Below, one piece after another: positions 12,967 through 33,158 of a stretch of 47,707 nt of DNA; the first letter of the stretch is position 1; each line of letters starts with the position of its first letter. The stretch comes from a virus. The stretch lies in IMG/VR virus record IMGVR_UViG_3300034073_002217, positions 1-47,707 of that record. One strand, given 5' to 3'. Below the pieces are notes generated by a model. It made no database searches and was not told the origin of the DNA. It saw only the letters and a program-made list of their open reading frames with translations. The translations under genes were made by a program, and so were the position numbers.

Positions 12967-13425
12967 TTATTTTGGATCATACCCCCATTCTAAATGAGAA
13001 TTGCCATCAGTGAATATATGTTTTGCTGGTACTCTCATTGCGGCAACATGATATTCGCCATTTAAATGATTTCTACCATGCTCGTGTGCATATTCTTTTG
13101 ATGTTGTTACCCAATCTCCTGGTCTAATCATATGTCTTATTGGTATTTCTTTTTTCATTGCTTCTTTACGAACAGATAACGGAACTGCTCTAAATATATA
13201 AATTTTTTCGTCTGGTTTATCTTTCATCCTTTGTATTTTATTAAAATTAGATTGATCATAATCATTTCCTTGATTTCCATAATATTCAAATCCTTTATGT
13301 GAATAAACATCTTTTGGATAAATTCCATTAGAAGTAACATCATGTAAGGGTGCTCCAGTTTCCTTATCTGGCGCTTCATGCTGTCCTTTATAATTTTCAG
13401 TGATAAACTGTTTAAATGTATACAT
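12967..13425 (-). CDS. Putative packaged ADP-ribosyltransferase with capsid-targeting N-terminus
   Basis: 152 residues. It opens MYTFKQFITE|N, like the T4 capsid-targeting peptide (MKTYQEFIAEA) cut after [IL]-x-E by gp21. The rest carries an ADP-ribosyltransferase-like R-S-E pattern: IYIFRAVP (Arg79), GDWVTTSKEYAHEH (Thr107-Ser109) and HLEWGYDP (Glu146), as in polyvalent ART domains of phages and plasmids. T4 Alt is a head-packaged ADP-ribosyltransferase that modifies host RNA polymerase on entry; this would be a smaller analogue. Target unknown. It lies between uvsY and the gp3-position tail gene. Confidence 0.6.
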   Translation of the reverse strand: MYTFKQFITENYKGQHEAPDKETGAPLHDVTSNGIYPKDVYSHKGFEYYGNQGNDYDQSNFNKIQRMKDKPDEKIYIFRAVPLSVRKEAMKKEIPIRHMIRPGDWVTTSKEYAHEHGRNHLNGEYHVAAMRVPAKHIFTDGNSHLEWGYDPK

Positions 13426-13434
13426 TTTTATCCT

Positions 13435-13956
13435 TTACATTTTTTGGATACTATATGATCTATATCTAAATGTTGCTGATGCTTCAAGATATTGAACATC
13501 TTGTGGGGTAGAATCGAAAATCAATGATGATATTGAAATAGGAAAAGCATCTTTAAATACTACTTCATAATTTGGATTTCTTGAAGATGTTAGAATAATC
13601 AATGACATATCAGAAGTTATTCCAAGTCCAGTATAAACTGGATTTCCTGATATTGATTTGTATTCATCAAAACTATTTGGAAATCCAAGTTCTCTTATCC
13701 AATTATACAACTCAAGATAGTTCTGAAGATCTTCATCAACTTTATAGTTAATCATAAGATCATCAAAATCGATATGATCTCCTGCTTTTGGTATTCTGAC
13801 GAATGGGTTAGGTTGTTCTGGACCATTTAATACCATTCCTGGAAGATTTACATTTTGAAGAAAGAAATTAACATTGGGGCACTTTTTGATTTGAAATCTG
13901 AAATTCAAAGGACTCAGAAAGTTTTTATTTTCTGGAATATTATCAAGTGCTGACAT
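13435..13956 (-). CDS. Tail-tube-like virion protein, at the gp3 position
   Basis: 173 residues. The pattern FRFQIKKCPNVNFFLQNVNLPGMVL, PNPFVRIPKAGDHIDFDDLMINYKVDEDLQNYLELYNWI and a later DAFPISISSLIFDS is that of the gp19/tail-tube fold family. In cyanophage-type T4 genomes the gene between gp23 and uvsY is annotated gp3, tail completion and sheath stabiliser (T4 gp3: 176 aa), so this is the positional candidate. Fold and position point to different T4 names, so I leave the symbol blank. Confidence 0.65.
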   Translation of the reverse strand: MSALDNIPENKNFLSPLNFRFQIKKCPNVNFFLQNVNLPGMVLNGPEQPNPFVRIPKAGDHIDFDDLMINYKVDEDLQNYLELYNWIRELGFPNSFDEYKSISGNPVYTGLGITSDMSLIILTSSRNPNYEVVFKDAFPISISSLIFDSTPQDVQYLEASATFRYRSYSIQKM

Positions 13957-13957
13957 T

Positions 13958-14302
13958 TTAAATTCTCCTTAATGCTTTGTGATCGAATACATAAATTGAA
14001 TGTGGTTCATTTCCACCTTCATTAAATCTTACTGCGGCAAATCCTTCACTTTTTGCTTGATTCAGATGTGGTTCTATATCATCTCCTGCATAAATGTGAC
14101 TCATATCTTTTACACGATTTGTTGGTATTTGTTTTGTCAATACTTCTTTTTCTTGTCCTGATTGTGTAAATTGTCTAGCAAACTCTTTATCTACAGAATA
14201 AAATTTTCCTTTTAGTGGTCCACCTTTACGATTGTGTACAGATTCTCCACGATATATTGTTATGTGATTTTCTTCTGTGATATATTGTTTAAACTTCTTC
14301 AT
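13958..14302 (-). CDS. Second putative packaged ADP-ribosyltransferase-like protein
   Basis: 114 residues. It opens MKKFKQYITE|E, a second version of the capsid-targeting motif with the [IL]-x-E cut site. Then HITIYRGES (Arg18), GKFYSVDKEFARQF (Ser37) and NEPHSIYVFD (Glu99) resemble the Arg, Ser and Glu blocks of small ADP-ribosyltransferase toxins. It follows the gp3-position gene's start closely and overlaps the upstream GIY-YIG gene by 14 bases. A packaged effector is the favoured reading. The ART call is weaker than for its neighbour at 12967-13425. Confidence 0.5.
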   Translation of the reverse strand: MKKFKQYITEENHITIYRGESVHNRKGGPLKGKFYSVDKEFARQFTQSGQEKEVLTKQIPTNRVKDMSHIYAGDDIEPHLNQAKSEGFAAVRFNEGGNEPHSIYVFDHKALRRI

Positions 14303-14576
14303 CTTTAAGATACCTAATTCTTGCGTGTTTTACTTCTGATATTGCTTGTTCTAAATCAATATCAAACCATTCCCCATGTGTTTTTCTGTGTTTAATCGTA
14401 TTGTGAATAGTTTGTTCAAGTAATCTAACTTGATCATCAGAAATCAATTCAATGTGATGCAATTTAAGTTTTTTTGGATGTCCTGTTTGAAGATTTTTCA
14501 ATCTTCTTGCAGGATTATTTGTTATTCCAATTTTATATGGTTTTTCTGTTCCACCGATTACATATAGATATGCCAT
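14289..14576 (-). CDS. GIY-YIG family nuclease (MUG113/T5orf172 type)
   Basis: 95 residues. AYLYVIGGTEKPYKIGITNNPARRLKNLQTGHPKKL, then LLEQTIHNTIKHRKTHGEWFDID, is the GIY-YIG variant in which the motif is LYVI...YKIGIT. Catalytic Tyr, Arg24 and Glu (in LLEQ) are present. It is small, has no DNA-binding domain and has its own late promoter -10 (14602-14609). It may be a free-standing homing-type endonuclease or a repair or defence nuclease. It overlaps the ART-like gene downstream. Confidence 0.8.
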   Translation of the reverse strand: MAYLYVIGGTEKPYKIGITNNPARRLKNLQTGHPKKLKLHHIELISDDQVRLLEQTIHNTIKHRKTHGEWFDIDLEQAISEVKHARIRYLKDEEV

Positions 14577-14601
14577 TTTATACTCCTGTTGTCTTATGGA
14601 G

Positions 14602-14609
14602 TATTTATA
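14602..14609 (-). promoter_or_regulatory. Late promoter -10 TATAAATA
   Basis: Exact T4 late -10 on the minus strand, 26 bp before the GIY-YIG gene (14289-14576) and immediately downstream of a terminator. Confidence 0.65.
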
Positions 14610-14611
14610 AC

Positions 14612-14637
14612 AAAAAGGGGAGGCATTTCTGCCTCCC
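14612..14637 (-). terminator. Rho-independent terminator after the homing endonuclease gene
   Basis: Stem GGGAGGCA (14618-14625) with TGCCTCCC (14630-14637), 4-nt loop, and on the minus strand a run of T at 14616-14612. It isolates the endonuclease gene from the late promoter that follows. Confidence 0.75.
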
Positions 14638-14673
14638 TCAGTAAGACCAGTTATTCTGGTTCTTGTTTAATAT

Positions 14674-14681
14674 TATTTATA
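14674..14681 (-). promoter_or_regulatory. Late promoter -10 TATAAATA overlapping the endonuclease stop
   Basis: Exact TATAAATA on the minus strand over the last codons of the homing endonuclease gene. Any transcript from it meets the terminator at 14612-14637 within about 60 bp, so its use is doubtful. Confidence 0.35.
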
Positions 14682-16194
14682 AAATTGACTTTTTTACAAA
14701 TACCAATGTTCCACAATCATATATTCTTTTGTATCCGTTGTCTTCCATATATTGTTTCTCTGTAATATCATTACATATATTTAATTTTTTCTTTGTATAA
14801 TTTGACCTATGCATTCTTTTTTCGTTTTTTGATAAATCAACATAAGCATATGATGGTGGATTGCGTTTAATTAATACAAACCCATTTTTCAAATATACAT
14901 TTCCTTGTGACCTTGAATAATCAGCATAGGATATAATATCTCCTTGATATTGTTTTTGAAAATTCTTTAGTAGTTTAGAAAATCCTCCTACACAAGAAAT
15001 TCCTTGACCAACACAATATCTTGACAGTTCCCACGGATAGTTTTTGTTATACCTGGATTTACAAAAAGTCATAATGCTTATGATTTTATCATCGTCATAT
15101 AAGGCAAACCAAATGCTTGATTTATCATCACCTTGCAAATGATTTTTATTTAAAAACTGTTTTTTGTCTGTTTGTGATGGTATTCTTATTGTCAATTTCC
15201 TCGCATACAATCTTTGGTATGGTTGTTCCAAAAGATTTACCAGAATAGACTTCCATATATCTTGTTTATAGATCCAATCATCACTAAAGATATGAATCAA
15301 CCTAACACCTACTTTCTCGCACTCAAGTGTTTTTGATATATGATACTTTCTGTCTTTTCTTAATGCAGGGTTGGAGTGTTCTGGTCTAAATGCGTGATAA
15401 AACACTCCATTATATTCAATCGCAAGTTTTTTAGATGGAATATATAAATCTACTTCCTTGCCATTCAATAATGTTCTGTCGTTGATTAAAACTTGGTCTT
15501 GTCCAATAATAGAACAAACATAATCAATAACTTGCTGATGTTGTCCAGATATTTTATTAAATTTTCTTGGATAACTGTTTGGTTGATTGGTCTCAATTTC
15601 GTGATAGTTCAACCACCTACTTACTGTTGCTTTAGAACTACCAACCATTTCTGCTATTTCTTCAACCTTCTTTCTTTGATTACAATGTAAATCAAACAAC
15701 CATTGTTTATCTTGTAGTTTCAACAATATAAGGGGTTGAGAACAATTGTGTTGAACCATAGGTATGTTATGTTGAATACATGCTTTTTTTATTGGATTAA
15801 TAGAACAGTTAATCAATTCTGCGATTTCTTCATAAGACTTTTTCAAATCAATTCTTTGATAATATAACCAATCTTTATCATTTAGTTTTTGATAAGTATC
15901 TTGATTCAATCTGTGTCTATGAGATCTACTACAATCTGGACCACAATAATTGCTAAATTTATTTTGATATGATTTGTTATATGTTACAGGCAACCCACAG
16001 ACTATACAGTTAGGGAAAGTTTGCTCCGTATAACCAAGATGTATTGCTAAACAACGAATCTTTAGTGGAGAATCAATCGGCATCCATTGTGTATAATTTA
16101 TTATTGTTTCACGAAGTTGTTTGTTTACTGATAAAGAAATCATATATTTCTTATCAAAGATTCTTTCGTCACATATTTGTTTGAGATCAATCAT
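14677..16194 (-). CDS. Homing endonuclease, Vsr-like (EDxHD-type) fold
   Basis: 505 residues from the ATG at 16194 (GGAAA six bases upstream). Order of parts: a zinc-binding motif CIVCG ... YCGPDCSRSH; two helix-turn-helix-like segments of the same type (YEEIAELINCS and VEEIAEMVGSSKATVSRW); then the nuclease VDLYIPSKKLAIEYNGVFYH ... KTLECEKVGVRLIHIFSDDW, the EDxHD/Vsr-like core of phage homing enzymes such as I-Bth0305I; and a C-terminal acetyltransferase-like stretch. It sits directly behind gp23, a favoured homing site, and is closed off by terminators on both sides. Confidence 0.8.
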   Translation of the reverse strand: MIDLKQICDERIFDKKYMISLSVNKQLRETIINYTQWMPIDSPLKIRCLAIHLGYTEQTFPNCIVCGLPVTYNKSYQNKFSNYCGPDCSRSHRHRLNQDTYQKLNDKDWLYYQRIDLKKSYEEIAELINCSINPIKKACIQHNIPMVQHNCSQPLILLKLQDKQWLFDLHCNQRKKVEEIAEMVGSSKATVSRWLNYHEIETNQPNSYPRKFNKISGQHQQVIDYVCSIIGQDQVLINDRTLLNGKEVDLYIPSKKLAIEYNGVFYHAFRPEHSNPALRKDRKYHISKTLECEKVGVRLIHIFSDDWIYKQDIWKSILVNLLEQPYQRLYARKLTIRIPSQTDKKQFLNKNHLQGDDKSSIWFALYDDDKIISIMTFCKSRYNKNYPWELSRYCVGQGISCVGGFSKLLKNFQKQYQGDIISYADYSRSQGNVYLKNGFVLIKRNPPSYAYVDLSKNEKRMHRSNYTKKKLNICNDITEKQYMEDNGYKRIYDCGTLVFVKKSIL

Positions 16195-16237
16195 TATAGT
16201 TTCCATTCTATGGTTTGGTATCTGTTGTAATATAGAT

Positions 16238-16266
16238 AAAAAAGAAGGGGGAATCAACCCCCTTCT
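16238..16266 (-). terminator. Strong rho-independent terminator behind gp23
   Basis: Perfect 9-bp stem AGAAGGGGG (16243-16251) with CCCCCTTCT (16258-16266), 6-nt loop, and six T on the minus strand. It lies 20 bp after the major capsid gene stop and should end the abundant gp23 transcript. Confidence 0.88.
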
Positions 16267-16286
16267 AATAATATGTATTGACTATT

Positions 16287-17636
16287 TTACATCAAGTTTG
16301 TAACAAGAACTCTTCTGTAGTAAACATTGCTGTCCTTAGTAAGTGCACCAACACCAGCAGTTGCACCTTCGGCAAATGGATTTGCTACCATTCCATAACG
16401 AGTCTTGAATCCAATCTTTGGATGGAATGAGTCTTGATCAACTGCACGAACCATTTGGAGAGGAACGTATGGGCAGTAGAATAGACCGGCATCAAATGCG
16501 TTTGATCCCTTATAACCTACGACCATATAGTTTCCACCTGTTGCATATGGGTCGATATAGACACGCATACGACCGTTAAGAACACCAGCAAATGTATTAC
16601 CAGTATCATCAACATTAAGTTGGTTGCTATTAAGTGCTGGAGCATAATCAAGGATACCTGCCATTTGAAGTGCAGAAGCAACATCTGATGAACAGATTAC
16701 GATATTGCCCTTCCCTCTACGGGTATCTTTTGCGATCTTATTAGCTTCTCTTTCAACTTGGAACATAAGACCCTTGAACTTTTCAACTGACCAACGACCG
16801 TTTGAGTCTGTATCAAGATCAAAGATACCAGAAGTTGTTGTACCTTCTGTAGCACCCTTAGTTGCAGTAACAAGGATTGTACGAACTACTTCACGATTGA
16901 TTTCTGCAAGAATTTCAGCAGAAAGAATGTTTGATAGTTCTGTTTCTGCATCAAGACCGTGAATTGCCTTAAGATCTTGTGCAAGTTCCATTGTGTATTC
17001 TGCTTTGAGAGCACGTGACTTTGCAGTAACGGCAACCTTTTCAATGCTGAATGCCATTTGAGCAAATGCAGTATTGTCAGTTGTACCAAGTGCTTCTGCT
17101 TGTGCAGTTGACATTGCTGAACCGAAGTTATAGATTCCTTCTTCAGCAAGGTTTGCTGTTACAGTTGTGTTGCCTGGAAGAGTACCAACATGCTTTTGAC
17201 CAAGTGTGTTTGCACCAGAAACAACTGAAGAGAATGCAGTATTGACTTCGTTGTAGAATGTTTCTGTGTGTGTTTGGTTAGCATATCTTGCACGCATTGC
17301 GAAGATAAGTCCTGTTGGACCTGTCATTGGCTGAACGCCGCAGATATCATAAGCAATAAGATTTGGCATTGCACGACGAACGAGAGAAATAAGAACAGGA
17401 TCGAAAGTGTCGATTGCACCATCAGATGCTGTAGAGCTAGATGCTCTCATTGCGTTTGCTGGAATTGGATTTTCAACAAGGAACTGGCTTGAATAAGCAG
17501 AACCTTCACGAAGTGCCTTTTCTGTATTTTCAAGAAGAACGGCAGTTGTATTACGGCGATGAATGTCCTTAATTGGGTTAAGGTCTTCATGCTCTAGAAT
17601 TGGCTTCCACTTGTTATTAAGTTGTTCTGTTAACAT
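16287..17636 (-). CDS. 23: Major capsid protein gp23
   Basis: 449 residues (cyanophage-type gp23 are about 460; T4 is 521). Blocks PVLISLVRRAMPNLIAYDICGVQPMTGPTGLIFAMRARY at 84-122 and SPKIGF/ARYGMVANPF-type sequences near the end are typical. A gp21 site FLVE|NPIP near residue 55 gives the mature N-terminus. Composition is more G+C-rich and the codon use more regular than in its neighbours, as expected of a very highly expressed gene. It has an exact late promoter 41 bp upstream and a strong terminator. Confidence 0.95.
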   Translation of the reverse strand: MLTEQLNNKWKPILEHEDLNPIKDIHRRNTTAVLLENTEKALREGSAYSSQFLVENPIPANAMRASSSTASDGAIDTFDPVLISLVRRAMPNLIAYDICGVQPMTGPTGLIFAMRARYANQTHTETFYNEVNTAFSSVVSGANTLGQKHVGTLPGNTTVTANLAEEGIYNFGSAMSTAQAEALGTTDNTAFAQMAFSIEKVAVTAKSRALKAEYTMELAQDLKAIHGLDAETELSNILSAEILAEINREVVRTILVTATKGATEGTTTSGIFDLDTDSNGRWSVEKFKGLMFQVEREANKIAKDTRRGKGNIVICSSDVASALQMAGILDYAPALNSNQLNVDDTGNTFAGVLNGRMRVYIDPYATGGNYMVVGYKGSNAFDAGLFYCPYVPLQMVRAVDQDSFHPKIGFKTRYGMVANPFAEGATAGVGALTKDSNVYYRRVLVTNLM

Positions 17637-17676
17637 TTTTGTGTTTACTCCCTAGAATTTCTTTATGGGTTGTTAT

Positions 17677-17684
17677 TATTTATA
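17677..17684 (-). promoter_or_regulatory. Late promoter -10 TATAAATA of gp23
   Basis: Exact TATAAATA 41 bp before the gp23 ATG, in the only sizeable gap between gp22 and gp23. T4 gene 23 is also served by its own strong late promoter. Confidence 0.8.
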
Positions 17685-17689
17685 ATTAA

Positions 17690-18916
17690 TTACTTTTTGA
17701 TAGTTCTTGAAATTGCTTTGGCATAATTAGCAATTTGTGGTTCAAGATATTTTACTTCTTGAGATTGTGTAACTTCTTCAACTTCTTCATTTAAAGTTGA
17801 AGGTGCTGTCTTAATGCCAAAATACTTTTCCTTGACAATTTCAAGTTTCTTCTTGTAGTTGTCTGGATTATTTTCAAACTCAACTCCTTCTGTCAAAGTC
17901 TTAAACTTGTCTACTTGTGTAAGAGCAAGTCCTTCAGAGACTTCGGCAAAAACCTTTTCTTTGTTACGTTCTTCAACGATTGCATTAAGCTCAATATTCT
18001 TTTCAAGTTGTTCGTTAAGTCTTGCTTCTAGTTCTTCAACTTTTTCTGCAAGTGCTTCAACTGCATCAACTTGTTCTTCTGGGAATTGAACATAATGTTC
18101 TGCGAATAGATTACGGAGACCCATAATGAAATCTTCTGCTAGTTCGTTGCGCAATGATGTATCAATTGCAACTTTATTTTCTTCTACCCAATTTTGAGCA
18201 ACATATGACATATAATAATCAATTTGCTCAGTAAGTGTTTCTGTAACTTGTTCTACTTCTTCAGTAAGTTTTGCTTCGTATTCTTCTTCAATACGAGCAA
18301 CTTCTGCGATAACTTTTGCATTTACTGCTGCTTCAAAAAGAACTGCTGTCTTTTCTTTGAATTCTTCTGAAAGTTCTTCACCGGAAAATAGTTCTGCAAC
18401 ATCTTCCTTAACAGCACCTTTCATAGCAATTGATGCGGCATTCTTGGCAGCAGCATCATCTGGAATTGTGGAAGCAAATTGTTTAGAAGTCATCATAGCA
18501 AGGACTTGTTCTAGTTGTGACTTATCCATTGCTGCCATTGATGTCATTGCTTGTGCCATCATGCCTGATTTTGAGGCATCTGATGGTTTTGCTTCGATAG
18601 AAGAAGCAGCAGAAGTATTGTCACCTTCCATGGCTTCCTCCATTACTTCTGGTTTCTTCTTCATATTTTTGCCTTTCTTCTTATTGTGGTAAGATTCATT
18701 TACTTTTTGTTCAACTCTAACTAAAGCACCTTTAACATCATCAGTTTTGGCACTCCCATCATTAATTTTTTTTAACAATTCATCATGGGATGGATGCTTT
18801 TTGGGTATCAGTTTTGGGCCATCTTTCATATGATCTGCATGAACAGTTATTCCTAATGGTCCTGGAGTAACCCGAAATTCTTTCCCCAAACGATCTTTCA
18901 TAGTTGTTGTTGGCAT
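17690..18916 (-). CDS. 22: Prohead scaffold gp22
   Basis: 408 residues, against 269 in T4. The T4-like part begins near residue 165: long Glu-rich helices, then DYYMSYVAQNWVEENKVAIDTSLRNELAEDFIMGLRNLFAEHYVQFPEEQVD and a coiled coil, ending AKAISRTIKK. The first 160 residues are extra. They include a basic segment with KGKNMKKKPEV and an Ala/Met-rich segment. gp22 forms the core around which gp23 assembles and is degraded by gp21. An exact late -10 is 31 bp upstream. Confidence 0.9.
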   Translation of the reverse strand: MPTTTMKDRLGKEFRVTPGPLGITVHADHMKDGPKLIPKKHPSHDELLKKINDGSAKTDDVKGALVRVEQKVNESYHNKKKGKNMKKKPEVMEEAMEGDNTSAASSIEAKPSDASKSGMMAQAMTSMAAMDKSQLEQVLAMMTSKQFASTIPDDAAAKNAASIAMKGAVKEDVAELFSGEELSEEFKEKTAVLFEAAVNAKVIAEVARIEEEYEAKLTEEVEQVTETLTEQIDYYMSYVAQNWVEENKVAIDTSLRNELAEDFIMGLRNLFAEHYVQFPEEQVDAVEALAEKVEELEARLNEQLEKNIELNAIVEERNKEKVFAEVSEGLALTQVDKFKTLTEGVEFENNPDNYKKKLEIVKEKYFGIKTAPSTLNEEVEEVTQSQEVKYLEPQIANYAKAISRTIKK

Positions 18917-18946
18917 ATTTTCCTCTTTAAAGTGTGAGTTTATTTC

Positions 18947-18954
18947 TATTTATA
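18947..18954 (-). promoter_or_regulatory. Late promoter -10 TATAAATA of gp22
   Basis: Exact TATAAATA on the minus strand, immediately after the gp21 stop and 31 bp before gp22. Confidence 0.7.
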
Positions 18955-19602
18955 TTAAAGTGATTTTAGGAATTGCTCAAACAACTTTACTTTCTGTTCT
19001 TCAAGTTGTCTTGATGACATTTTCTTAACACTTTCTTTAATCTTTTCTACAAATTCACCAGTTTGTTCATTGTAGAAATATTCTACATTCTCCATGATTC
19101 CTTGAACAAATGCTCCTGGTGCTGATGGATCTGCAACAATATCTGCTGCTGTTACAATACGAAAATCGTCTTGTACTTCCATCAATCCATTTTGTCCTGC
19201 CTTCAATGAACCTAGTCCACGTGAAGAAACACCAAGATTTGCTCCACCTTCAATCAATCCTCTGGCAATATTTCCCATAGGAGTATCAAGAACTTTTGCT
19301 CTACCCCAAACAACACCATTTGATCTAACTTCAAGATTTTCAATGAGGTGTGATACTCTATCAAGATTGATTTGTGGTCCTGATGGATGATTTAATTCAC
19401 CATAAGCACGTTTTTCTGAAACTACTTCTTTTAGATAACGATTGACTTCGTTTCTCATCACTCCTTCAGAATAAACTCTTCCGTTCTTGTTACCTTTTCC
19501 ATAGACCATGTAACAACCTTCAATGAAAAGATTTTTCTTTCCATTTTCTGATGCTTCTGTGATGAACGATACTTCATCTGCTTGTTCTAAAATAAGTTTC
19601 AT
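18955..19602 (-). CDS. 21: Prohead protease gp21
   Basis: 215 residues (T4: 212). Catalytic blocks: YGELNHPSGP with His72, and GVSSRGLGSLKAG with the nucleophile Ser at 126/127. The TPMGNIARGLIEGGANLG segment between them is typical. It cuts scaffold, capsid and packaged proteins after [IL]-x-E, a motif present in gp23 and in the family of small packaged proteins in this window. Confidence 0.95.
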   Translation of the reverse strand: MKLILEQADEVSFITEASENGKKNLFIEGCYMVYGKGNKNGRVYSEGVMRNEVNRYLKEVVSEKRAYGELNHPSGPQINLDRVSHLIENLEVRSNGVVWGRAKVLDTPMGNIARGLIEGGANLGVSSRGLGSLKAGQNGLMEVQDDFRIVTAADIVADPSAPGAFVQGIMENVEYFYNEQTGEFVEKIKESVKKMSSRQLEEQKVKLFEQFLKSL

Positions 19603-19611
19603 GAATTCCTC

Positions 19612-19983: not shown

Positions 19984-19986
19984 GGA

Positions 19987-20862
19987 TTACTTCTTGCTTT
20001 TTGTAGATTTTGATGGTTTTTTGTAATTTGGATCTAAAGTTCCAACTACAACCCCTTTACCAGGAACTTTTGCTAATGCCCGTGTGGGGTCCATTGGACC
20101 TGATCCATATCTTTCATCTGGTCCTGCGTCTGCTGGACCTAGCATTTCTTTAGGATATTCTGGTGCTCTAATTCTATTTACATCAATACCTTTTAGAATT
20201 TTTGACATTCTTTTTGTAGTTGATGGAGGAGATGTTGCTTCTTTTGCTGCTGCTTTCAATTCGTTTCTTTTTGCAACAATGCCTGGGCTTCTTTTGTTGA
20301 AAGTATCTTTATATGCTTTTTTTATTGCTATTAAAGATTGTTCGTCTGAAGATTCATTCATCTGACTGTAAGCAATTGCTAATGCTTGCTTTTTATCTGT
20401 TACCTGTTTGCCGTGACTATCTTTAAGTTCTCCAGCAGAAAACTCCCGCATAACCTTGGCAATCTTACTTTGTTCTTTTGGTGAAAGTTTTCGGGTTACT
20501 CTTTCATCTAATGTTTCAAAATATTCCAATTCTTCAAATTCTTCATTCTTGGGGGTTTTATTTTTTTTCTTTTCTTTTTGATTCAAAGCAACTGTGCGAT
20601 TTCTAGCAGCAGTGAATAAAGGATGTTCTATTTTAGATTTTTCTTCAATGGTTTCTTCATAAACCTTTTCATCTTCACCAGGATTATATCCATGCTCAGG
20701 TGTACGATTTACAGTCTTAATATTCTTTGCATTGAATAAATTATCATCGTTGCCATTTGCATCTTTATGCTTAACAACAACATGCTTGTCCTTGAATCTC
20801 TTTTCATCAGGAGATTTAGGTTCATAAACCTCTAATTGAAGAATTTCTTTAAGCGTTTTCAT
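19987..20862 (-). CDS. Basic head-region protein with DUF6496-like motif
   Basis: 291 residues, Lys-rich. The segment KIAKVMREFSAGELKDSHGKQVTDKKQALAIAYSQM at about 133-168 matches the DUF6496-type phage motif (KVM-x-E...GTLKSG-x-GK-x-V...QAIAIA). The N-terminus MKTLKEILQLEVYE vaguely resembles the capsid-targeting peptide, with LQLE as a possible gp21 site. Together with the basic tail this suggests an internal head protein bound to DNA. It overlaps the acidic core gene by 14 bases. Confidence 0.55.
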   Translation of the reverse strand: MKTLKEILQLEVYEPKSPDEKRFKDKHVVVKHKDANGNDDNLFNAKNIKTVNRTPEHGYNPGEDEKVYEETIEEKSKIEHPLFTAARNRTVALNQKEKKKNKTPKNEEFEELEYFETLDERVTRKLSPKEQSKIAKVMREFSAGELKDSHGKQVTDKKQALAIAYSQMNESSDEQSLIAIKKAYKDTFNKRSPGIVAKRNELKAAAKEATSPPSTTKRMSKILKGIDVNRIRAPEYPKEMLGPADAGPDERYGSGPMDPTRALAKVPGKGVVVGTLDPNYKKPSKSTKSKK

Positions 20863-21163
20863 CTGAATCTCCTTCTAAGTCTTCTTCTTCAAAATCGAAA
20901 TCTAGTTCATCTCCTACTTCAAGATCATCATCCTCAAATTCTTCTTCTTCACTTTCTTCGTAATCTTCTGTTTCTTCTTCTGTGTCGTCATCTTCAGATT
21001 CTTCATCATCTGAATTGACTCCCATAAATTCTTGTGCTACTTGTGCTTTTCTTTCAGCAACAGCATCACGAATCTTATCAAGCATTAATTCTGCAAATGT
21101 GGTTTGCATACCAACCACATCTTTGTCTAATGTTTGTGTGATAATATCTTCTTTATCAGCCAT
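20849..21163 (-). CDS. Acidic prohead core protein (gp67/gp68-like)
   Basis: 104 residues. A helical N-terminal half (TTFAELMLDKIRDAVAERKAQVAQEFMG) is followed by a tail of almost only Glu, Asp and Ser. It lies between portal gp20 and protease gp21, where T4 carries the prohead core genes 67 and 68. The acidic tail is typical of these scaffold components. Which T4 gene it corresponds to cannot be decided. Confidence 0.75.
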   Translation of the reverse strand: MADKEDIITQTLDKDVVGMQTTFAELMLDKIRDAVAERKAQVAQEFMGVNSDDEESEDDDTEEETEDYEESEEEEFEDDDLEVGDELDFDFEEEDLEGDSDENA

Positions 21164-21166
21164 AAT

Positions 21167-22801: not shown

Positions 22802-22814
22802 ATTATATCAGTCC

Positions 22815-23438: not shown

Positions 23439-23466
23439 TTTTTAATAACTCCTTTGATAATCTTGT

Positions 23467-23474
23467 TATTTATA
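23467..23474 (-). promoter_or_regulatory. Late promoter -10 TATAAATA of gp19
   Basis: Exact TATAAATA between gp18 and gp19, 29 bp before the gp19 ATG. Confidence 0.7.
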
Positions 23475-23482
23475 TCTATTTA

Positions 23483-26005: not shown

Positions 26006-26051
26006 TGTATTGTCTCCTTTTCAGAGTTGTTATTATTATTGTGGTTAGTGA

Positions 26052-26059
26052 TATTTATC
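26052..26059 (-). promoter_or_regulatory. Late-type promoter -10 GATAAATA of gp18
   Basis: GATAAATA on the minus strand in the 60-bp gap between gp17 and gp18. Confidence 0.55.
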
Positions 26060-26065
26060 AATTTA

Positions 26066-27688
26066 TCAATTTTGATCCACAACAATCCAATAATCATCTC
26101 TATAAGACATTTCATCAGAGACAGGTTCTACTCCATCATCAATAAATCCAAACGGTAACATATCATCGTTTAATTCTTCTAAACTCTTTTCTTTCAATTT
26201 CATTAATGTGTTTATATCAGTTAAGTCTTTGAAGAATTTCTGTTCTGTTAACCATCCAAACAAAACTAAACACATAACCAAATCATCATGGCATCCTGAT
26301 TCTGCTTCATATGAAGCACCTTTTTTAGAAAATGTAGATAACTCGTGAATTGTTTCATAATCATTAATAAGTAATTGATTTTGTTCTACTAATAATTTTA
26401 ACATAGAACATCCAATTGCTTTTACAGATTTTGTAGTTCTTATTCCTCTATCAGTTCCTGAAGATTTGTAGTTCAGAGTAATTCGTTTTCCTTGCTTTCC
26501 AGCAGACTCAGTAAACATCATTGATTCATATTCATAATCAAAATATAACGATTCTGCTACTTGTTGTCCTATATCATTTACTTCAATTAACATAGAACAA
26601 TTGTTATATTGTCTTCCGATTCTGTTTAATATTTCTGCAAAATCTCCAGGAGTTGTCATATTATCTCTGAACGATAAAACTTGTTGATATGGCATTTCTG
26701 TCACATCAAATACTTGCAATGCAGAATAATCTAATCCTTTTCCACGAGAAACATCAGCAACACCAACATATGTCCTGTTTTTCTTTGGTTTTTCATATTG
26801 ACTAATACCAGCATGTTCTGCTATTGGTGTTTGAGGAACTAATTCTTGTAATTTCCAACCAGCAATAAGAGTTCCTGATGAACCAAGATATTGATTTTCA
26901 TATTCTTGTGCAAATCTATCATAGTCAAAATTCATTCCTGCAAGAATTTCTTCTTTCCATTTTTCATCTCTGTTAGGAACATTTTGCCACGGAACAGAAA
27001 TCAATTTGTAATTGTTTTTATTTTGTCTTGCCAAAGATGTTATCTTATAAAAATGATTTAATCCGTTTACTGTTGATACAAGAACAAGTTTTGTAGATGC
27101 ACCTGATGATATAGTTGGAAATACTGAAGTAAAAAACTCGTCCCAATTATCAATAAATGCTGCCTCATCAATGATTAATAAATTAATTGAATAACCACGA
27201 ATGTTATTTGAAGAGGTTGCTGCTGCAATAACTCTTGATCCGTTTTCTAATTCAAACGAACCTTTATTCCATTCTATAACACCTTGTTGTAACCATTTTG
27301 GCAAATGTTCGTATGCTAACTGTATCCTTGATAGAATTTCTCTTGCAGTTTCTGCTTTATTAGCAAGAATTGCTACAGTTTTATTTGGATTAAAAATAAT
27401 ATACCAAAGAACGAATACAGTAATAGAAGTTGTTTTCCCTGACTGTCTACTGCATTCTGCTACTGTAAACCTTTCATTAAGAACTGTTGTGATGATATCT
27501 TTTTGATAATCATATAAAGGAATAGTGATTAGTCCTTGGTCAACATTCACAATTTTCATATGATTTTCAGCAAAGTAGATTGGGTCTTGTGAACACTTAA
27601 CCATTTCTTGGACTTTTTCAGGAGTCCAATCTATTTGTACATTTGATTTTTTTAGTGTGGATGATCCACGATAACCTTTAAGTTCCAT
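26066..27688 (-). CDS. 17: Terminase large subunit gp17
   Basis: 540 residues (T4: 610). ATPase: Walker A SRQSGKTT at 80-87, Walker B LLIIDEA at 170-176, coupling SST-like VSTVNG. Nuclease: VADVSRGKGLDYSALQVFD near 318 (first Asp), IEVNDIGQ near 382, CHDDLVMCLVL near 475 (last acidic pair). It packages DNA into the prohead and cuts concatemers. Start and the preceding muramidase stop share a base (TAATG), so translation is coupled. Confidence 0.95.
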   Translation of the reverse strand: MELKGYRGSSTLKKSNVQIDWTPEKVQEMVKCSQDPIYFAENHMKIVNVDQGLITIPLYDYQKDIITTVLNERFTVAECSRQSGKTTSITVFVLWYIIFNPNKTVAILANKAETAREILSRIQLAYEHLPKWLQQGVIEWNKGSFELENGSRVIAAATSSNNIRGYSINLLIIDEAAFIDNWDEFFTSVFPTISSGASTKLVLVSTVNGLNHFYKITSLARQNKNNYKLISVPWQNVPNRDEKWKEEILAGMNFDYDRFAQEYENQYLGSSGTLIAGWKLQELVPQTPIAEHAGISQYEKPKKNRTYVGVADVSRGKGLDYSALQVFDVTEMPYQQVLSFRDNMTTPGDFAEILNRIGRQYNNCSMLIEVNDIGQQVAESLYFDYEYESMMFTESAGKQGKRITLNYKSSGTDRGIRTTKSVKAIGCSMLKLLVEQNQLLINDYETIHELSTFSKKGASYEAESGCHDDLVMCLVLFGWLTEQKFFKDLTDINTLMKLKEKSLEELNDDMLPFGFIDDGVEPVSDEMSYRDDYWIVVDQN

Positions 27689-28320
27689 TAATTATGTAAT
27701 CCAAACTCATCTTTTATTTTATTTAATCTTGCTTTCCACCCTTCACGATATTTTTCATATTTTGGGTTTGCGGTTAATCTATTATAATCCTTTTGTCTTG
27801 CGTTTAAAAGTTCGTGTGGATTATCTCCTACGGTATCAATTAATTTTTTTGCAAATCTTGGACCATGATGTACAGATGCATCCAATACAATTGCTCTTGA
27901 TGGTTTGCTCAGTGTATGATATTTTGGATGTTTTATCATTTCATTATAATATTGTGTTTTATATATTTCTCCTGCTTTTTCGTGTGAGAGATTTTTTATT
28001 TCATTTTTTGAAAGTCCTGTTCCTTTTTCACTCACTCCAAACTTTGTTGTTCCTCCAGGATCAGATTTATCTTTTGATAATCCCCCTTCCAACTTGAAAG
28101 TTCTTTCAATAAAATCTTCTGATTCTTTTTTATGATCTATAGGATTGTCTAGTCTTCTAATTAAATCTCCTATTTCATCTTTTGGTGGCGCAACATATTT
28201 TTTAATCAAATTACCAATATGATCAATTCCACGTCTTGGAGTTACTATTGCAGGAGGTTGCATAGATGTTGGGGGTAGATACCCCGAGTCTTCTTTAAGA
28301 AATTGTTTAAAAGTTTTCAT
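27688..28320 (-). CDS. GH108-type muramidase with capsid-targeting N-terminus
   Basis: 210 residues. Starts MKTFKQFLKE|DS, nearly the T4 capsid-targeting peptide with an L-x-E cut site. After a linker comes the GH108 lysozyme domain: FKLEGGLSKDKSDPGGTTKFGVS with the catalytic Glu78, DASVHHGP, and a C-terminal NARQKDYNRL...YREGWKARLNKI peptidoglycan-binding-type end. It is wedged between gp16 and gp17 with one-base overlaps (TAATG) at both ends. It could open the wall from inside the cell at DNA entry, or act in lysis. No signal peptide is seen. Confidence 0.8.
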   Translation of the reverse strand: MKTFKQFLKEDSGYLPPTSMQPPAIVTPRRGIDHIGNLIKKYVAPPKDEIGDLIRRLDNPIDHKKESEDFIERTFKLEGGLSKDKSDPGGTTKFGVSEKGTGLSKNEIKNLSHEKAGEIYKTQYYNEMIKHPKYHTLSKPSRAIVLDASVHHGPRFAKKLIDTVGDNPHELLNARQKDYNRLTANPKYEKYREGWKARLNKIKDEFGLHN

Positions 28321-28700
28321 TATTCTTTCTTTTGTAATAATGTTAATAAATCAGCAGTTGATCCAACAAATAAATTTTGATTAACAGTTTTTGGTGAATC
28401 GTTTGCCTTTTCTTCTTTGTGTCTAATATCAACTTCTTTGGATTTGATTTCCATAAGTTCTTTATTTGCAGTGGTCATTGCAGAAATTAATTCTGTCAAA
28501 ACTCTGTACACTCTTGGGTCTTGAGATTGCTGTGCCATGTCTGCTAAATCAGACATTGCTCTTGTCCCAACATCAATAACATTGTGCATATTCCCTTTTG
28601 CCGTTTCATAATCACTATTAGTTTTAACTGCAACCAAATCTTTTCTTGTTGGTTCTAAAGGAGTTAAATCTAATGCAGTGGCAATAGTATCATCACTCAT
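28320..28700 (-). CDS. 16: Terminase small subunit gp16
   Basis: 126 residues (T4: 164). A helical pair with DYETAKGNMHNVIDVGTRAMSDLADMAQQSQDPRVYRVLTELISAMTTANKELMEIK is typical of the gp16 coiled-coil core. It regulates gp17 and recognises the DNA to be packaged. Overlaps gp15 by 8 bases. The gene order 15-16-17 of T4 is kept except for the inserted muramidase. Confidence 0.88.
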   Translation of the reverse strand: MSDDTIATALDLTPLEPTRKDLVAVKTNSDYETAKGNMHNVIDVGTRAMSDLADMAQQSQDPRVYRVLTELISAMTTANKELMEIKSKEVDIRHKEEKANDSPKTVNQNLFVGSTADLLTLLQKKE

Positions 28701-29541
28701 TCAAAATAATTCCTTCCGATGTTATAATATACCCAAAATCATCATCTACTTCAATCAATGAATAGTCTATAGAAACATTTGCATCTGATGTTGGATTGCC
28801 ATTAGCATCCAATCCAGGGTTTACTGTTACTCTACCTATAACATCTGTTTCTCCAACAGATGCAGCAACATTTGCTTGTGATCCTCCAGAAGGAACAAAG
28901 AATTGAGTATTAGCAATCTTGATAATTGGTTTGCTTACAACTGGACCATACATCCATCCTTTAACCGTAAAATTCAAAGTCCATATGATTGCTCGTCTTT
29001 CTTCAAAATTTCCTGCATATGTATCTTCCATACTGATGTTATTAAGAATGATTGGAATATCCATAGCAATATTCATTTCAGGAATTAGGTTTACTGTTGC
29101 TGTCCAATCTGGAGTGAAGAATGGAATAATCTGTTCAATGATCTTTGTTCCGTCTTCAGCATTTTTAACGTATACATATAAATTAAAATCAAAATTGTAT
29201 GGAACTGGATTATATTGTGATTTTAATTTATTTGCATTTGATGCATCTTTAACTACTTGTCTTGATATAGTATTAAGTTTTCTAGAACCATCATAACCTA
29301 GACCGGTCATCTCAAATGACATTCTTGGTAAAAATATTGCTGTTTGTCTTGTGATTTCTGGATCGGCATCCACTCGTGCAAGCATTTTATCCTTTGGTGC
29401 ATAAGACAAAGGTATTTTTAATACTGCAACTGTATTTCCATCAGCATTCGATCTTGTTATTCTTACATCATTAAAAATATTACCAAAATAAATAACCATT
29501 TTACGAATAGTTGAAAAATAAAATACTCCGTGTCCAAACAT
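28693..29541 (-). CDS. 15: Tail terminator / sheath stabiliser gp15
   Basis: 282 residues (T4: 272). MFGHGVFYFSTIRKMVIYFGNIFNDVRITR, QYNPVPYNFDFNLYVYVKNAEDGTKIIEQIIPFFTPDW and RAIIWTLNFTVKGWMYGPV match T4 gp15 block by block. It caps the finished tail and binds the head neck. The C-terminal 60 residues are Asn/Asp/Val-rich. Confidence 0.93.
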   Translation of the reverse strand: MFGHGVFYFSTIRKMVIYFGNIFNDVRITRSNADGNTVAVLKIPLSYAPKDKMLARVDADPEITRQTAIFLPRMSFEMTGLGYDGSRKLNTISRQVVKDASNANKLKSQYNPVPYNFDFNLYVYVKNAEDGTKIIEQIIPFFTPDWTATVNLIPEMNIAMDIPIILNNISMEDTYAGNFEERRAIIWTLNFTVKGWMYGPVVSKPIIKIANTQFFVPSGGSQANVAASVGETDVIGRVTVNPGLDANGNPTSDANVSIDYSLIEVDDDFGYIITSEGIILNE

Positions 29542-29543
29542 TA

Positions 29544-30185
29544 TTAATACCTCGTACTCTTTTTTCTATTTTTGGCAGATTCTGACATTTTTTTCTTGTG
29601 TTCTTCGGAAAATATTTGTTTTGCTCTTGCCATTTTTATTTTTTCTATTGTTTCTGGAGTATGTTTGTGTCCTTTGCCAAACCCGACATCTCTGCCTTTC
29701 ATTTTTTTACTTATTGTAGTTTTTGTTTCTTCAGAATGTTTTTTCCCTTTATTTCCTTCACTTATTTTTTTTCTTGCTTCTGCGGAGTGTGTTTTGTTAA
29801 ACATATGGTTTTTAGAACCAAGTTGTGCTAATGCTATTTTTTTCTTACTATCTTCGGAGTGATGTTTGCCGAGCATTCCATAAGTGATATTATCAAAAGG
29901 CATTTTTCCTTCACTTATGTTTATCCATTCTTTTTTCCTTTTTACTTTCAATCTTCTCAACACTTTATTTTCCCAGTTTATAGCATCAATTTTGTTTTCA
30001 AAAATTTTTCTAATTTCAACTTCAAATGAATTTATGCCATATTCATTAATTAACTCTTTTACTTTTTTACAAGAAGTGAAATATTTATCCCATAAATCTT
30101 TAGGGTCACAATTCTTAGCATATCTTACTCCATAATATTTTAGTCCGGTGGGGTGATGATATAGATAATATGTATAAGGTTTCAT
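29544..30185 (-). CDS. GIY-YIG homing endonuclease with NUMOD3 repeats (Seg-like)
   Basis: 213 residues. N-terminal GIY-YIG variant YYLYHHPTGLKYYGVRYAKN, then KVKELINEYGINSFEVEIRKIF with the catalytic-site Glu region. Residues 105-210 hold five NUMOD3-type DNA-binding repeats, each about 18-20 residues (GKHHSEDSKKKIA, KTHSAEARKKIS, GKKHSEETKTTIS, HKHTPETIEKIK, FSEEHKKKMSES). This is the layout of T4 Seg-type free-standing homing endonucleases. It separates gp14 from gp15 and has its own exact late -10. Confidence 0.88.
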   Translation of the reverse strand: MKPYTYYLYHHPTGLKYYGVRYAKNCDPKDLWDKYFTSCKKVKELINEYGINSFEVEIRKIFENKIDAINWENKVLRRLKVKRKKEWINISEGKMPFDNITYGMLGKHHSEDSKKKIALAQLGSKNHMFNKTHSAEARKKISEGNKGKKHSEETKTTISKKMKGRDVGFGKGHKHTPETIEKIKMARAKQIFSEEHKKKMSESAKNRKKSTRY

Positions 30186-30216
30186 TAATAATTCTCCTGC
30201 AATTTAAATACAATAG

Positions 30217-30224
30217 TATTTATA
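30217..30224 (-). promoter_or_regulatory. Late promoter -10 TATAAATA before the Seg-like gene
   Basis: Exact TATAAATA 32 bp before the endonuclease start, in the gp14-to-endonuclease gap. Confidence 0.65.
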
Positions 30225-30236
30225 ATTGGTTTGGGT

Positions 30237-30983
30237 TTAATACTTTCCATCTGGAGAATTGCCAAAAGGATTGGTTTCTGTCCAATCTATTACACTATCA
30301 TCTGTTATTTCATCACCAATTCGTTTATTATCTGCTAACGGATCAAATTGCTCAATGTTATCTTGGAATTTAGATGTAACAAGATAATCTCCGTTATTGG
30401 TTTTAAGCACCTTACCGTTTGCTGCAAGTAATCCAAAATCAATTGCATTGACTGAAAAATTCTTTTGCAATTTATCAATATCTTCTATGCCAGTTTCTAA
30501 TACTTCATTAGAATATTCGTATAGTTCACATGTTAAATCATACATTTGCAATTCACCAAGTTGATAGAAGAAAGGTTTATTATCTACATACTTGATTTCA
30601 AAGCATTTTTTATTGAGAGGAAAATATATTAAATCTCCTTCTCTAGGTCTTAATAATTCTGCTTCTTCTCTAGTTATTTCTATTTCAAAAGTTCTTCTAG
30701 CAATTGATAATATAACTTGATCTCTGATTTCTAATCCAAATTTGGAAAAGAATGAACCTTGACCACCAAAACCTTCAGTTGATTTTGTATATACTTCTAT
30801 TGTATAAAATGTATCAAATGAAGAAATATCATCTTCATAATAAACCCCATCAAAGTTATTTCTTCTTCTGGGAAGGTAATACATATCTTGCCCATACAGA
30901 CGAATGCTCTCTACAACAAGATCTTCTAGGAGTTCTTGCTCCATAGAGTTTCCAAAATTGTTGAAAAAAGTTGACGTGGGCAT
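30237..30983 (-). CDS. 14: Neck protein gp14
   Basis: 248 residues (T4: 256). LLEDLVVESIRLYGQDMYYLPRR, YTKSTEGFGGQGSFFSKFGLEIRDQVILSI and PREGDLIYFPLNKKCFEIKYVDNKPFFYQLGELQMY match T4 gp14. With gp13 it closes the filled head and docks the tail. Late-type -10 38 bp upstream. Confidence 0.93.
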   Translation of the reverse strand: MPTSTFFNNFGNSMEQELLEDLVVESIRLYGQDMYYLPRRRNNFDGVYYEDDISSFDTFYTIEVYTKSTEGFGGQGSFFSKFGLEIRDQVILSIARRTFEIEITREEAELLRPREGDLIYFPLNKKCFEIKYVDNKPFFYQLGELQMYDLTCELYEYSNEVLETGIEDIDKLQKNFSVNAIDFGLLAANGKVLKTNNGDYLVTSKFQDNIEQFDPLADNKRIGDEITDDSVIDWTETNPFGNSPDGKY

Positions 30984-30994
30984 ATTCTAATACC

Positions 30995-31543
30995 TTATGA
31001 CATAGGTGATGATTGTTTAGTATTTATCATCTTTTTATTATGTTGTTTAAGATGTTCAAATGCCGCATTAATATCACCATTGTTGTGAGAATCAATAGCA
31101 TTGGAGAGATGTTCCCCTGGCATAGATTCGTCGTATTCATCTTGTGCTTTTTCCAATGCTGCTTTTGATTTAGCAATCAACTCTGGATTTAAGTTTGGTT
31201 TATTAATCTCTCCATGAGAATAAACTGGCAATTCATGTGCCATTCCACCTGCTTGTGCTGGAGATGCGGCAAGCATTGTTGCTGCTATCATTGCTCTCAA
31301 TGATTTTGATTCTAGCAACGAACCTCTTATTTCTTGCGCAGACATTTTATTATTCAATGGTGTATGCCCAAGATTATGTCTTAGAGCATTAATCTTTGTT
31401 AGATGAAATTTTTTTTCACTTGCTGAGGTTTTTGGATTCAGATAAGCATGAATAGAATCATTATGTGCTTTTTTGATGTGTATGTCTTCTGGATTATCGT
31501 TGCTTGCTTGCATTTCAGCAAGGAATTGTTTGAATGTTAGCAT
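30995..31543 (-). CDS. Putative packaged protein with an internal signal-peptide-like segment
   Basis: 182 residues. Opens MLTFKQFLAE|MQ, the capsid-targeting motif with an L-x-E site. Residues 76-78 are LLE, another possible gp21 site, and the sequence after it (SKSLRAMIAATMLAASPAQA|GG) has the form of a Sec signal peptide: basic start, hydrophobic core, Ala-x-Ala. The C-terminal half is helical and charged, with repeated SHNNGDINAAFEHL-type sequence. The protein might be packaged, trimmed and, once injected, exported, but this is speculation. Function unknown. Confidence 0.55.
   Translation of the reverse strand: MLTFKQFLAEMQASNDNPEDIHIKKAHNDSIHAYLNPKTSASEKKFHLTKINALRHNLGHTPLNNKMSAQEIRGSLLESKSLRAMIAATMLAASPAQAGGMAHELPVYSHGEINKPNLNPELIAKSKAALEKAQDEYDESMPGEHLSNAIDSHNNGDINAAFEHLKQHNKKMINTKQSSPMS
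31021..31028 (-). promoter_or_regulatory. Late-type promoter -10 GATAAATA of gp14
   Basis: GATAAATA on the minus strand, 38 bp before gp14 and overlapping the 3' end of the preceding gene. Confidence 0.5.
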
Positions 31544-31570
31544 AAATTGGTTGCCCTGTAAAAATGTTTG

Positions 31571-32083
31571 TTATTCAGAATATTGTCTATTGAATGGAAT
31601 CCATTTTTTATTTTTGTGATCCCATTTGTCACGAATGTATCTTGCTGGTATTTTGTCTTTTACTTTATAACCACCGTAGTTACCGCCTTTTTCAATAGGA
31701 TTTGGCATATTTCTACCAGGAATAATTCTATATAATGCTAATTTTTTTTGTATACCAGCTTTCTTATTTGCAGAACTAATTTTCCAAGAACCACTTTTTT
31801 CATTTGTTGGATCAGTATCATCCCAATGATCACTTATATGAACATGTTTTGTTTGTTCATCCGCAGCTTTGTTTAAGTCTTCATCATTTGAAAAAGTGTC
31901 TCCCCATTTTTTCTTAAATATTTTTTTTGCTTCTTCATGTCCAACAAGAGATGAAAGTGATTTCAAATCCTCTCCAGGTTGTAAATCATCAGGGCCTATA
32001 TGAAAAAATCTTTTTGGTCTTTTTAATTCTGTCAAATATTCTTCATTTATATTAAAGAATTGTTTGAATGTTAGCATTACCAT
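31571..32083 (-). CDS. Putative packaged protein, possibly ADP-ribosyltransferase-like
   Basis: 170 residues; the in-frame ATG two codons later gives MLTFKQFFNINEEYLTE, again capsid-targeting-like, with YLTE as the nearest L-x-E site. The body has FFHIGPDDLQPGEDLKSLSSL, HVHISDHWDD and GGNYGGYKVKDKIPARYI, an order that recalls ADP-ribosyltransferase-fold proteins (FH-x-G...L-x-S...later strands). The catalytic Glu cannot be placed with confidence. Coupled to the upstream gene by a short overlap. Confidence 0.45.
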   Translation of the reverse strand: MVMLTFKQFFNINEEYLTELKRPKRFFHIGPDDLQPGEDLKSLSSLVGHEEAKKIFKKKWGDTFSNDEDLNKAADEQTKHVHISDHWDDTDPTNEKSGSWKISSANKKAGIQKKLALYRIIPGRNMPNPIEKGGNYGGYKVKDKIPARYIRDKWDHKNKKWIPFNRQYSE

Positions 32084-32382
32084 TTAACCTTATTTGCCCA
32101 ATAGGCAGCAGACATTTTACCTTTTGCTATATTTTTGGCATGTCTTGCTTTGAATCTCTTTCTTCTATTCGCATATGCTTCTGATTCTCCTTTTTTCTTA
32201 GGAGAACCTTTCACTCCTCGTTGTCCAAAACGAATAATCTTTTCTTTACCACCAGAACATGCTTTTACCACATGAGACTTACCAGTTTGAGAATCACCGA
32301 CTGCTTGTGCTCTTGGTTTATTACATGCCATTTTGCTTTTATCTATTTTTGCTTCAGATAAGAATTGACTAAATGTTAACAT
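32077..32382 (-). CDS. Basic packaged internal protein
   Basis: 101 residues. Starts MLTFSQFLSE|A, the closest match in the window to the T4 internal-protein peptide, cut after L-x-E. The mature part is strongly basic: KPRAQAVGDSQTGKSHVVKACSGGKEKIIRFGQRGVKGSPKKKG then RRKRFKARHAKNIAKGKMSAAYWANKVKW, a conserved phage motif of unknown role that probably binds nucleic acid. It follows gp13. A DNA-bound internal head protein is the favoured reading. Confidence 0.65.
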   Translation of the reverse strand: MLTFSQFLSEAKIDKSKMACNKPRAQAVGDSQTGKSHVVKACSGGKEKIIRFGQRGVKGSPKKKGESEAYANRRKRFKARHAKNIAKGKMSAAYWANKVKW

Positions 32383-33136: not shown

Positions 33137-33150
33137 GGACTTCCTTTACA

Positions 33151-33158
33151 TATAAATA
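33151..33158 (+). promoter_or_regulatory. Late promoter -10 TATAAATA of the oxygenase operon
   Basis: Exact TATAAATA on the + strand, 40 bp before the Rieske gene. It is the only + strand gene start that needs a promoter in this window. Confidence 0.65.

Follow-up and report, generated by a model that had tools for sequence, protein, structure and literature searches.

Five of the 59 genes in a 47.7-kb virus record from a T4-superfamily phage (IMGVR_UViG_3300034073_002217; all 47,707 nucleotides are referred to as the window) start with the peptide M-x-x-F-x-Q-[FY]-[IL]-x-E. This shared N-terminus is very probably a capsid-targeting sequence (CTS) that works as it does in T4, so that the proteins carrying it would be packaged in the head, cut, and injected into the host. 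An earlier note on this DNA had proposed that the peptide is a sorting tag. The proposal is supported because its conserved positions match those defined by mutagenesis in T4, the tagged domains are unrelated to each other, the residue after the predicted cut has a signature of its own, and enzymes reported in the virions of relatives start with such a tag.

By analogy with T4, tag residues 4 and 7 would bind the freshly synthesised protein to the core of gp22 scaffold within the prohead. Cleavage after [IL]-x-E (residue 10) by the gp21-type protease would then release the tag, with the mature domain staying with the DNA and entering the host at infection. The tag would be portable: unrelated domains that carry the N-terminal extension would each become head-packaged cargo. 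In this virus the cargos are probably early anti-defence or takeover factors (an ADP-ribosyltransferase-like protein, a lysozyme, a small basic protein).

The shared N-terminus and its T4 counterpart

The first 10 residues of the T4 internal protein IPIII suffice for packaging, positions 4 and 7 serving mainly targeting and positions 8 and 10 processing, and gp21 cuts after L/I-x-E (PMC9026906, with the CTS work of Mullaney and Black 1996 cited therein). The window tags conserve exactly these four positions. The earlier note had stated that the T4 internal head proteins and Alt begin MKTYQEFIAEA; in GenBank this holds for IPII and IPIII but not for Alt, which starts MELITELFDE, and IPI starts MKTFKEFTSTTTPVSTITEA (MKTFKEF).

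The window set resembles IPI, IPII and IPIII in having a short N-terminal tag, aromatic residues at 4 and 7, unrelated mature parts and a gp21 protease in the genome, and shares with IPII and IPIII the [LI]-x-E cut at residue 10. It differs in having F4, as in IPI, rather than Y, and K-Q mostly at 5-6; five or six genes of the window are tagged, and family searches recognise none of their cargos as internal proteins. T4 Alt is a head-packaged ADP-ribosyltransferase with an N-terminal gp21-type site, but it is 682 residues long, whereas its possible counterpart in the window (gene 13958) has 114 residues and an F/Y tag. A 76-residue open reading frame (ORF) inside the annotated uvsW of T4 (L429:15211), which we take to be UvsW.1, has a CTS-like start, MLLEFKQFLYEASIDEF, that is one residue out of register.

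All five N-termini are present as the earlier note quoted them (genes 12967, 13958, 27688, 30995 and 32077), all on the minus strand; the start numbers of that note, kept here as gene names, are stop-codon ends. F4 and F/Y7 are found in the five genes and also in 31571 when it is counted from codon 3; the tag ends with I/L8 and E10 in the five, and 31571 has LTE at 15-17. The tagged genes are interspersed with structural genes, some single and some consecutive: 12967 and 13958 between gp23 and uvsY, 27688 between the terminase subunits, and 30995, 31571 and 32077 between neck genes. The window also encodes gp22 scaffold and tail genes, and the gp21 homologue that the earlier note had reported is a Peptidase S77 (Table 1). 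The scaffold is the presumed docking partner of the tag. A candidate cut site in gp23, QFLVE/N, resembles the QF[IL]xE end of the tag and has its T4 parallel in FLTE/A.

The motif is confined to protein starts. Its core occurs nowhere inside the window proteins (0 in 15,298 residues), and it appears at no start in 2,000 rounds of shuffling these proteins. The looser F..[FYW][ILMF].E has one internal match, in 8778, and falls at starts in the shuffles 0.0115 times on average (maximum 2). Because the codons vary among the five tags, conservation is at the level of the protein and not that of a copied DNA leader, the exception being 30995 and 31571. In these two genes, neighbours that are otherwise unrelated, the tags begin with the same 21 bases (ATGCTAACATTCAAACAATTC), which looks like copying or recombination of the tag DNA.

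A second record, IMGVR_UViG_3300036770_003454 (149 kb), has no differences from the window across 20,456 compared bases, and because of this identity the two are taken as one virus. There ATGNNNNNNTTYNNNCARTWYHTNNNNGAR matches exactly at the five Q-type tags and nowhere else (5 reverse, 0 forward; the reversed pattern has 0). Its first 109 kb, scanned for the motif in six pieces, yield a sixth strictly tagged gene, outside the window (MRFKTFINE, 343 residues, L426:16872-17903, at about 96.9-97.9 kb), with no Pfam match at E<=0.01; a further 17 rows match the loose motif only.

The sequence TATAAATA, presumably the T4 late-promoter core, occurs 11 times on the minus and twice on the plus strand of the window. 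It or a variant (TATAAATA/GATAAATA) lies upstream of 14289, 30237 and 32396, which are next to tagged genes, and not upstream of each tagged gene.

Table 1. Features of the window. Cargo status is predicted; a slash marks the predicted cut, and aa stands for amino acids.
Feature	Position	Strand	Details
Cargo 1, 152 aa	12967..13425	-	tag MYTFKQFITE/N at 13396-13425; phrog_2579 domain ('ParB C-terminal domain')
Cargo 2, 114 aa	13958..14302	-	tag MKKFKQYITE/E at 14273-14302; small domain
Cargo 3, 210 aa	27688..28320	-	tag MKTFKQFLKE/D at 28291-28320; GH108 lysozyme
Cargo 4, 182 aa	30995..31543	-	tag MLTFKQFLAE/M at 31514-31543
Probable cargo 5, 170 aa	31571..32083	-	MLTFKQFFNINEEYLTE/L from codon 3 (32027-32077)
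Cargo 6, 101 aa	32077..32382	-	tag MLTFSQFLSE/A at 32353-32382; lysine-rich, phrog_7595
gp23 pro-sequence ending QFLVE/N	17472..17636	-	candidate cut site, placed by position from T4 gp23
gp22-type scaffold	17690..18916	-	PF25623, E 9.5e-65
gp21-type prohead protease (Peptidase S77)	18955..19602	-	PF03420, E 2.5e-32; gp22 and gp23 adjoin
gp68-slot protein 19987 (MKTLKEILQLE)	19987..20862	-	between gp67-like gene and gp21
gp67-like (phrog_1064)	20849-21163		

The tag across other viruses

The tag is not confined to this virus, and its register is exact. The exact DNA pattern for M-x-T-F-K-Q-F-[ILMF]-x-E occurs in at least 119 stretches of viral contigs, against 3 for the same codons in scrambled order (full scan); 6 of the 129 exact matches have more than 60 open codons upstream, which makes their starts unsure, and were kept in. 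With the selecting hits removed, a broader tag stands in register at 31 of 1,246 gene starts of the tag-bearing loci. At offsets of -2, -1, +1, +2 and +3 the counts are 0, 3, 1, 1 and 1, and shuffles give a mean of 0.2 (maximum 3). Of 1,432 N-termini in random viral loci, 2 are tagged, one of them seemingly by chance.

Behind the tag, the proteins are diverse. The claim of the earlier note that the rest of the window proteins are mutually unrelated stands: once the tag is removed, no window cargo matches another at E 1e-3. At the same threshold, 174 tagged proteins without their tags (166 from tag-bearing loci and 8 of this virus, one of them 19987; locus L110 repeats two window genes) fall into 108 clusters, 82 of them singletons. 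Pfam recognises 24 families among 90 cluster representatives of at least 70 residues, each in one member, including SAM lyase, ART-PolyVal, ADPrib_exo_Tox, Zeta toxin, lysozyme, glucosaminidase, Zn protease, DnaJ and HEAT repeats. Among the 25 listed of 69 PHROGs families are endolysin families and a cytidyltransferase family found in 2 members, and PADLOC adds 4 families, one of them a type II restriction enzyme. The domains of 12967 and 13958 are found both tagged and untagged, and homologues of three window cargos (12967, 13958, 32077) in other phages are mostly untagged.

The residue after the predicted cut played no part in selecting the tagged proteins. Among 158 distinct proteins, 75 have A, S or G there, while for positions 14-24 the count is 383 of 1,738 (p 2e-11). 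With one protein per cluster, the figures are 48 of 104 and, for downstream residues, 252 of 1,144 (p 2e-7). T4 IPII, IPIII and gp23 have alanine after the cut. The bias at residue 11 is indirect evidence that may be read as a cut-site signature, with cleavage after residue 10.

Co-occurrence with the protease was rejected as proof: records above 100 kb have S77 whether tagged (7 of 8) or random (5 of 5), and the same goes for gp23 (8 of 8 tagged, 5 of 5 random). Of the records below 100 kb, 38 tagged and 40 random, S77 is carried by 8 and 1 respectively (p 0.012), and either S77 or gp23 by 9 and 2 (p 0.019). The sample comprised 46 of 80 listed tagged records (>15 kb) and 45 of 80 listed random ones (>15 kb, plus one of 13.4 kb); three scrambled-pattern records, 2 of which have S77, were left out.

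The 14.2-kb viral contig L026 has four exact tags and three variants, an island of tagged genes. In Methylophilales phage Melnitz-1, genes starting MQGFKTFLSE and LINFSKYITE lie beside a cytidylyltransferase with the imperfect MKKFSEIIEA.

Virion proteins of relatives and competing explanations

Published virion proteomes of cyanophages provide a link between tag and particle. In S-CREM2, with 52 virion proteins (PMC10665884), a motif set with its N-termini in view, M.{0,3}F..[FYW][ILMF].E, marks 5 coding sequences (CDS), 4 of which are detected in virions, against 48 of 214 others (p 0.012); without the 24 annotated structural proteins the figures are 4 of 5 and 24 of 190 (p 0.0016). The detected four are a SAM hydrolase (MKDFDSFLEE), a kinase (VKRFDAFLTE), a cytidylyltransferase (MKNFSSFLTE) and ORF136 (MQTFSMFFSE), and the undetected ORF30 (MNFKKWFKE) is one residue out of register. 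Two lookalikes were not counted, ORF13 (MKDLHSFLTE) and the Cas9-like ORF12 (RFASFMAE from residue 18).

S-SCSM1 (PMC9602691) was tested with the motif fixed and ORFs of at least 50 residues. Two of its 282 CDS are tagged, and one of them, an NMNAT (MKSFLQFLKE), is labelled a virion protein; a third match is internal to CDS 162. Virion status here is a hand count of GenBank labels, which gives 48 where the paper says 45 (PMC9602691). For the two phages combined, 5 of 7 tagged proteins are detected, compared with 95 of 494 others (p 0.0043). In S-SM1, a cytidylyltransferase of cluster T4-GC190 is reported in virions (PMC3037559); within the 35 kb of that genome examined, it starts MKKFSAFLNE, and the neighbouring second cytidyltransferase (GC1454) is untagged. 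The virion-reported enzymes of S-CREM2, S-SCSM1 and S-SM1 thus start with the same kind of tag as the window proteins but are other cargos, and the available text of the three papers does not mention a targeting sequence.

Several observations weigh against a packaging tag. Residue 11 is not A, S or G in about half of the tagged proteins. Near gp21 in 80 relatives the tag is rare, with 1 of 936 N-termini tagged and, in a looser count, 4 of 21 motif occurrences starting with M, and no clear tagged gene is found in the stretches examined of DLP6 (36.9 kb) and phiM12 (41.3 kb). The S-CREM2 comparison is not a blind test, and 48 of the 52 virion proteins of this phage have no strict tag. In S-SCSM1, SSCSM1_30 (MKTFKQFMSE) is not labelled a virion protein, and 1 of 2 tagged proteins in virions is not significant when taken alone (p 0.31). 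The authors of both proteomes warn of carry-over and leave cargo or carry-over undecided (PMC10665884, PMC9602691). The tag in these virion enzymes favours cargo over carry-over.

Of the other explanations, the one that survives best accepts that the tag targets the head, but has the cargo act inside the virion, in DNA condensation or head maturation, rather than as an injected effector. T4 internal proteins are also in the core, and 32077 and several of the wider tagged proteins are small and, by eye, basic-looking. Against this stand the SAM lyase, Zeta toxin, ADP-ribosyltransferase and peptidoglycan hydrolase families among the cargo matches, and 13958, which resembles ADP-ribosyltransferases and has a domain that recurs with LPD22 and a nuclease domain, as fits action in the host. 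We regard a role confined to the virion as unlikely.

The shared start could instead be a translational leader or another sorting signal, for the membrane or the tail, as it occupies the very N-terminus of proteins encoded among head and tail genes. However, the codons vary and the residues do not, the peptide is by eye not hydrophobic like a signal peptide, and the fixed 4/7/8/10 register with a small residue 11 matches the T4 CTS and the gp21 cut, which makes this alternative improbable. Spread of one gene family by duplication, with bodies that diverged, would account for the 21 identical bases in 30995 and 31571. It is rejected by the tag-less comparison at E 1e-3, 12967, 27688 and 32077 match different known families, and related domains occur untagged elsewhere; we regard it as highly improbable. 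Chance resemblance is refuted by the shuffles and the scrambled pattern, and its probability is negligible.

A CTS working as in T4 remains the best account of the shared N-terminus. CTS-driven packaging of diverse internal proteins is established in T-even phages, one of these proteins being a proven anti-restriction factor (PMC3012670, PMC9026906, PMC9391042, PMC5694885), and the CTS has already been proposed as a possible means by which T4-like phages take in various proteins (PMC9026906). T4 had thus supplied the principle; what is new is the set of cargos, an unusually wide one. Application of the CTS to cyanophages or uncultured T4-like phages does not appear among the open-access matches listed, which is not proof of absence. 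The strings MKTYQEF, MKTFKQF and MKTFKEF are not found in the text of the open-access papers searched, which says little since sequences often stand in figures.

Injected phage proteins are rarely known and costly to measure. Because its register matches T4 genetics and it ties in with published virion proteomes, a tag that can be read from sequence gives a testable prediction of injected proteins for uncultured T4-like phages. It also provides a simple explanation of the NMNAT, SAM hydrolase and kinase in cyanophage virions. The balance tips slightly towards a broader proposal, a portable packaging code of the T4 superfamily by which any gene gaining some 10 codons (F4, F/Y7, [ILMF]8, E10) would yield a head-loaded, injected protein. 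If this code is real, the proteins that environmental T4-like phages inject could be read from sequence: ∼100 or more clusters, most of them undescribed, among them SAM lyases, a Cas9-like nuclease, NMNAT-like enzymes, ADP-ribosyltransferases and lysozymes.

Individual tagged proteins and neighbouring genes

The domain of 12967 is tagged in Vibrio phage R11Z (Schizotequatrovirus; MKTYTEFLSE), more loosely in Vibrio phage 1.081.O (MYSFSEFINLAE), and in five environmental homologues, the same virus not counted (L411 starts with GTG), which have indels where tag and domain meet. In Mycobacterium phage Colt and a Manatee Spring phage it is untagged and forms the C-terminal part of a longer protein. 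The N-termini of 4 of 171 matching phage records were examined. A structure model of 12967 has a pLDDT of 55 and a best PDB match at E 2.5; residues like those of ADP-ribosyltransferases are seen by eye only.

For 13958 the AlphaFold model (mean pLDDT 82.3) most resembles ADP-ribosyltransferases. The 50 Foldseek matches listed of 406 are all ART/PARP (E 0.014-0.061, probability up to 1.00), none of the 406 reaching E<=0.001. A second aligner gives a middling VIA Z of up to 6.7, where the tool treats 8 as clear, and no Pfam family is found at E<=1. The domain is tagged in locus L436, lies 264 and 1,000 residues into ORFs in L437 and L438, is short and untagged in L442, and matches partially in L439-L441. 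It also occurs in Cobetia phage Carin1 gp32, a large polyvalent protein (2,854 residues, LPD22 and PBECR5), where it lies deep within, ∼1,470 residues in; in the window it stands alone behind the tag.

The GH108 assignment of 27688 (PF05838, E 5.8e-14) has 52.8 bits against a curated cut-off of 21.2; PHROGs identifies the neighbours as the terminase large and small subunit genes. If packaged, the lysozyme could act in entry, and an endolysin role is also possible. For 30995, PHROGs gives nothing at E<=0.1, Pfam a single match below its cut-off, and the phage collection no match at E<=0.01.

The looser version that the earlier note saw in 31571 is probably a genuine member. Read from the third codon (MLTFKQFF...YLTE), it retains targeting residues 4 and 7 with a later L-T-E, and in this separation of targeting residues and cut site it is like T4 IPI. 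A homologue in L088 (29% over 147 residues, E 7e-10) starts MKTFKQFLAE. As for 32077, of its 80 listed relatives in viral contigs 79 lack a tag between the start and the core, and one, L329, has it. A cut after LSE would leave AKIDKSKMACNKP, nearly the same as the starts of many relatives, such as MAKLDKSKMACNKP.

The other looser version, 19987, was dropped, with the wrong residues at positions 4, 7 and 10 (L4, I7, L10). Because it misses the tag positions and occupies the gp68 slot, it is probably a prohead core protein. A portal-like gene in the window is assigned by position. Among the phage-collection matches listed for gp23, the best are Stenotrophomonas phage DLP6 (71.5%) and Sinorhizobium phages phiN3/phiM12 (65.4%). 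An 82-residue ORF of phiM12 fits the strict motif but runs opposite to annotated genes, and DLP6 AAY80_013 (MSQKTYNDLINE) fits the loose motif only.

In the Cas9-like virion protein ORF12 of S-CREM2 (L201:7704-10313), RFASFMAEA begins at annotated residue 18, a hint that the start codon is misplaced or the tag longer; Pfam has no match for this protein at E<=0.01. In the window, three adjacent proteins at 35323-38137 have, by eye, SGGxDS-type (PP-loop ATPase-like) motifs, with no Pfam match at E<=0.001. The trio adjoins a Rieske protein and two 2OG-Fe(II) oxygenases on the opposite strand (33112-35326). At 42208-44946, a 912-residue protein with many NTTGxxNTAVGxxAL repeats looks, by eye, like a tail fibre with a chaperone-like C-terminus.

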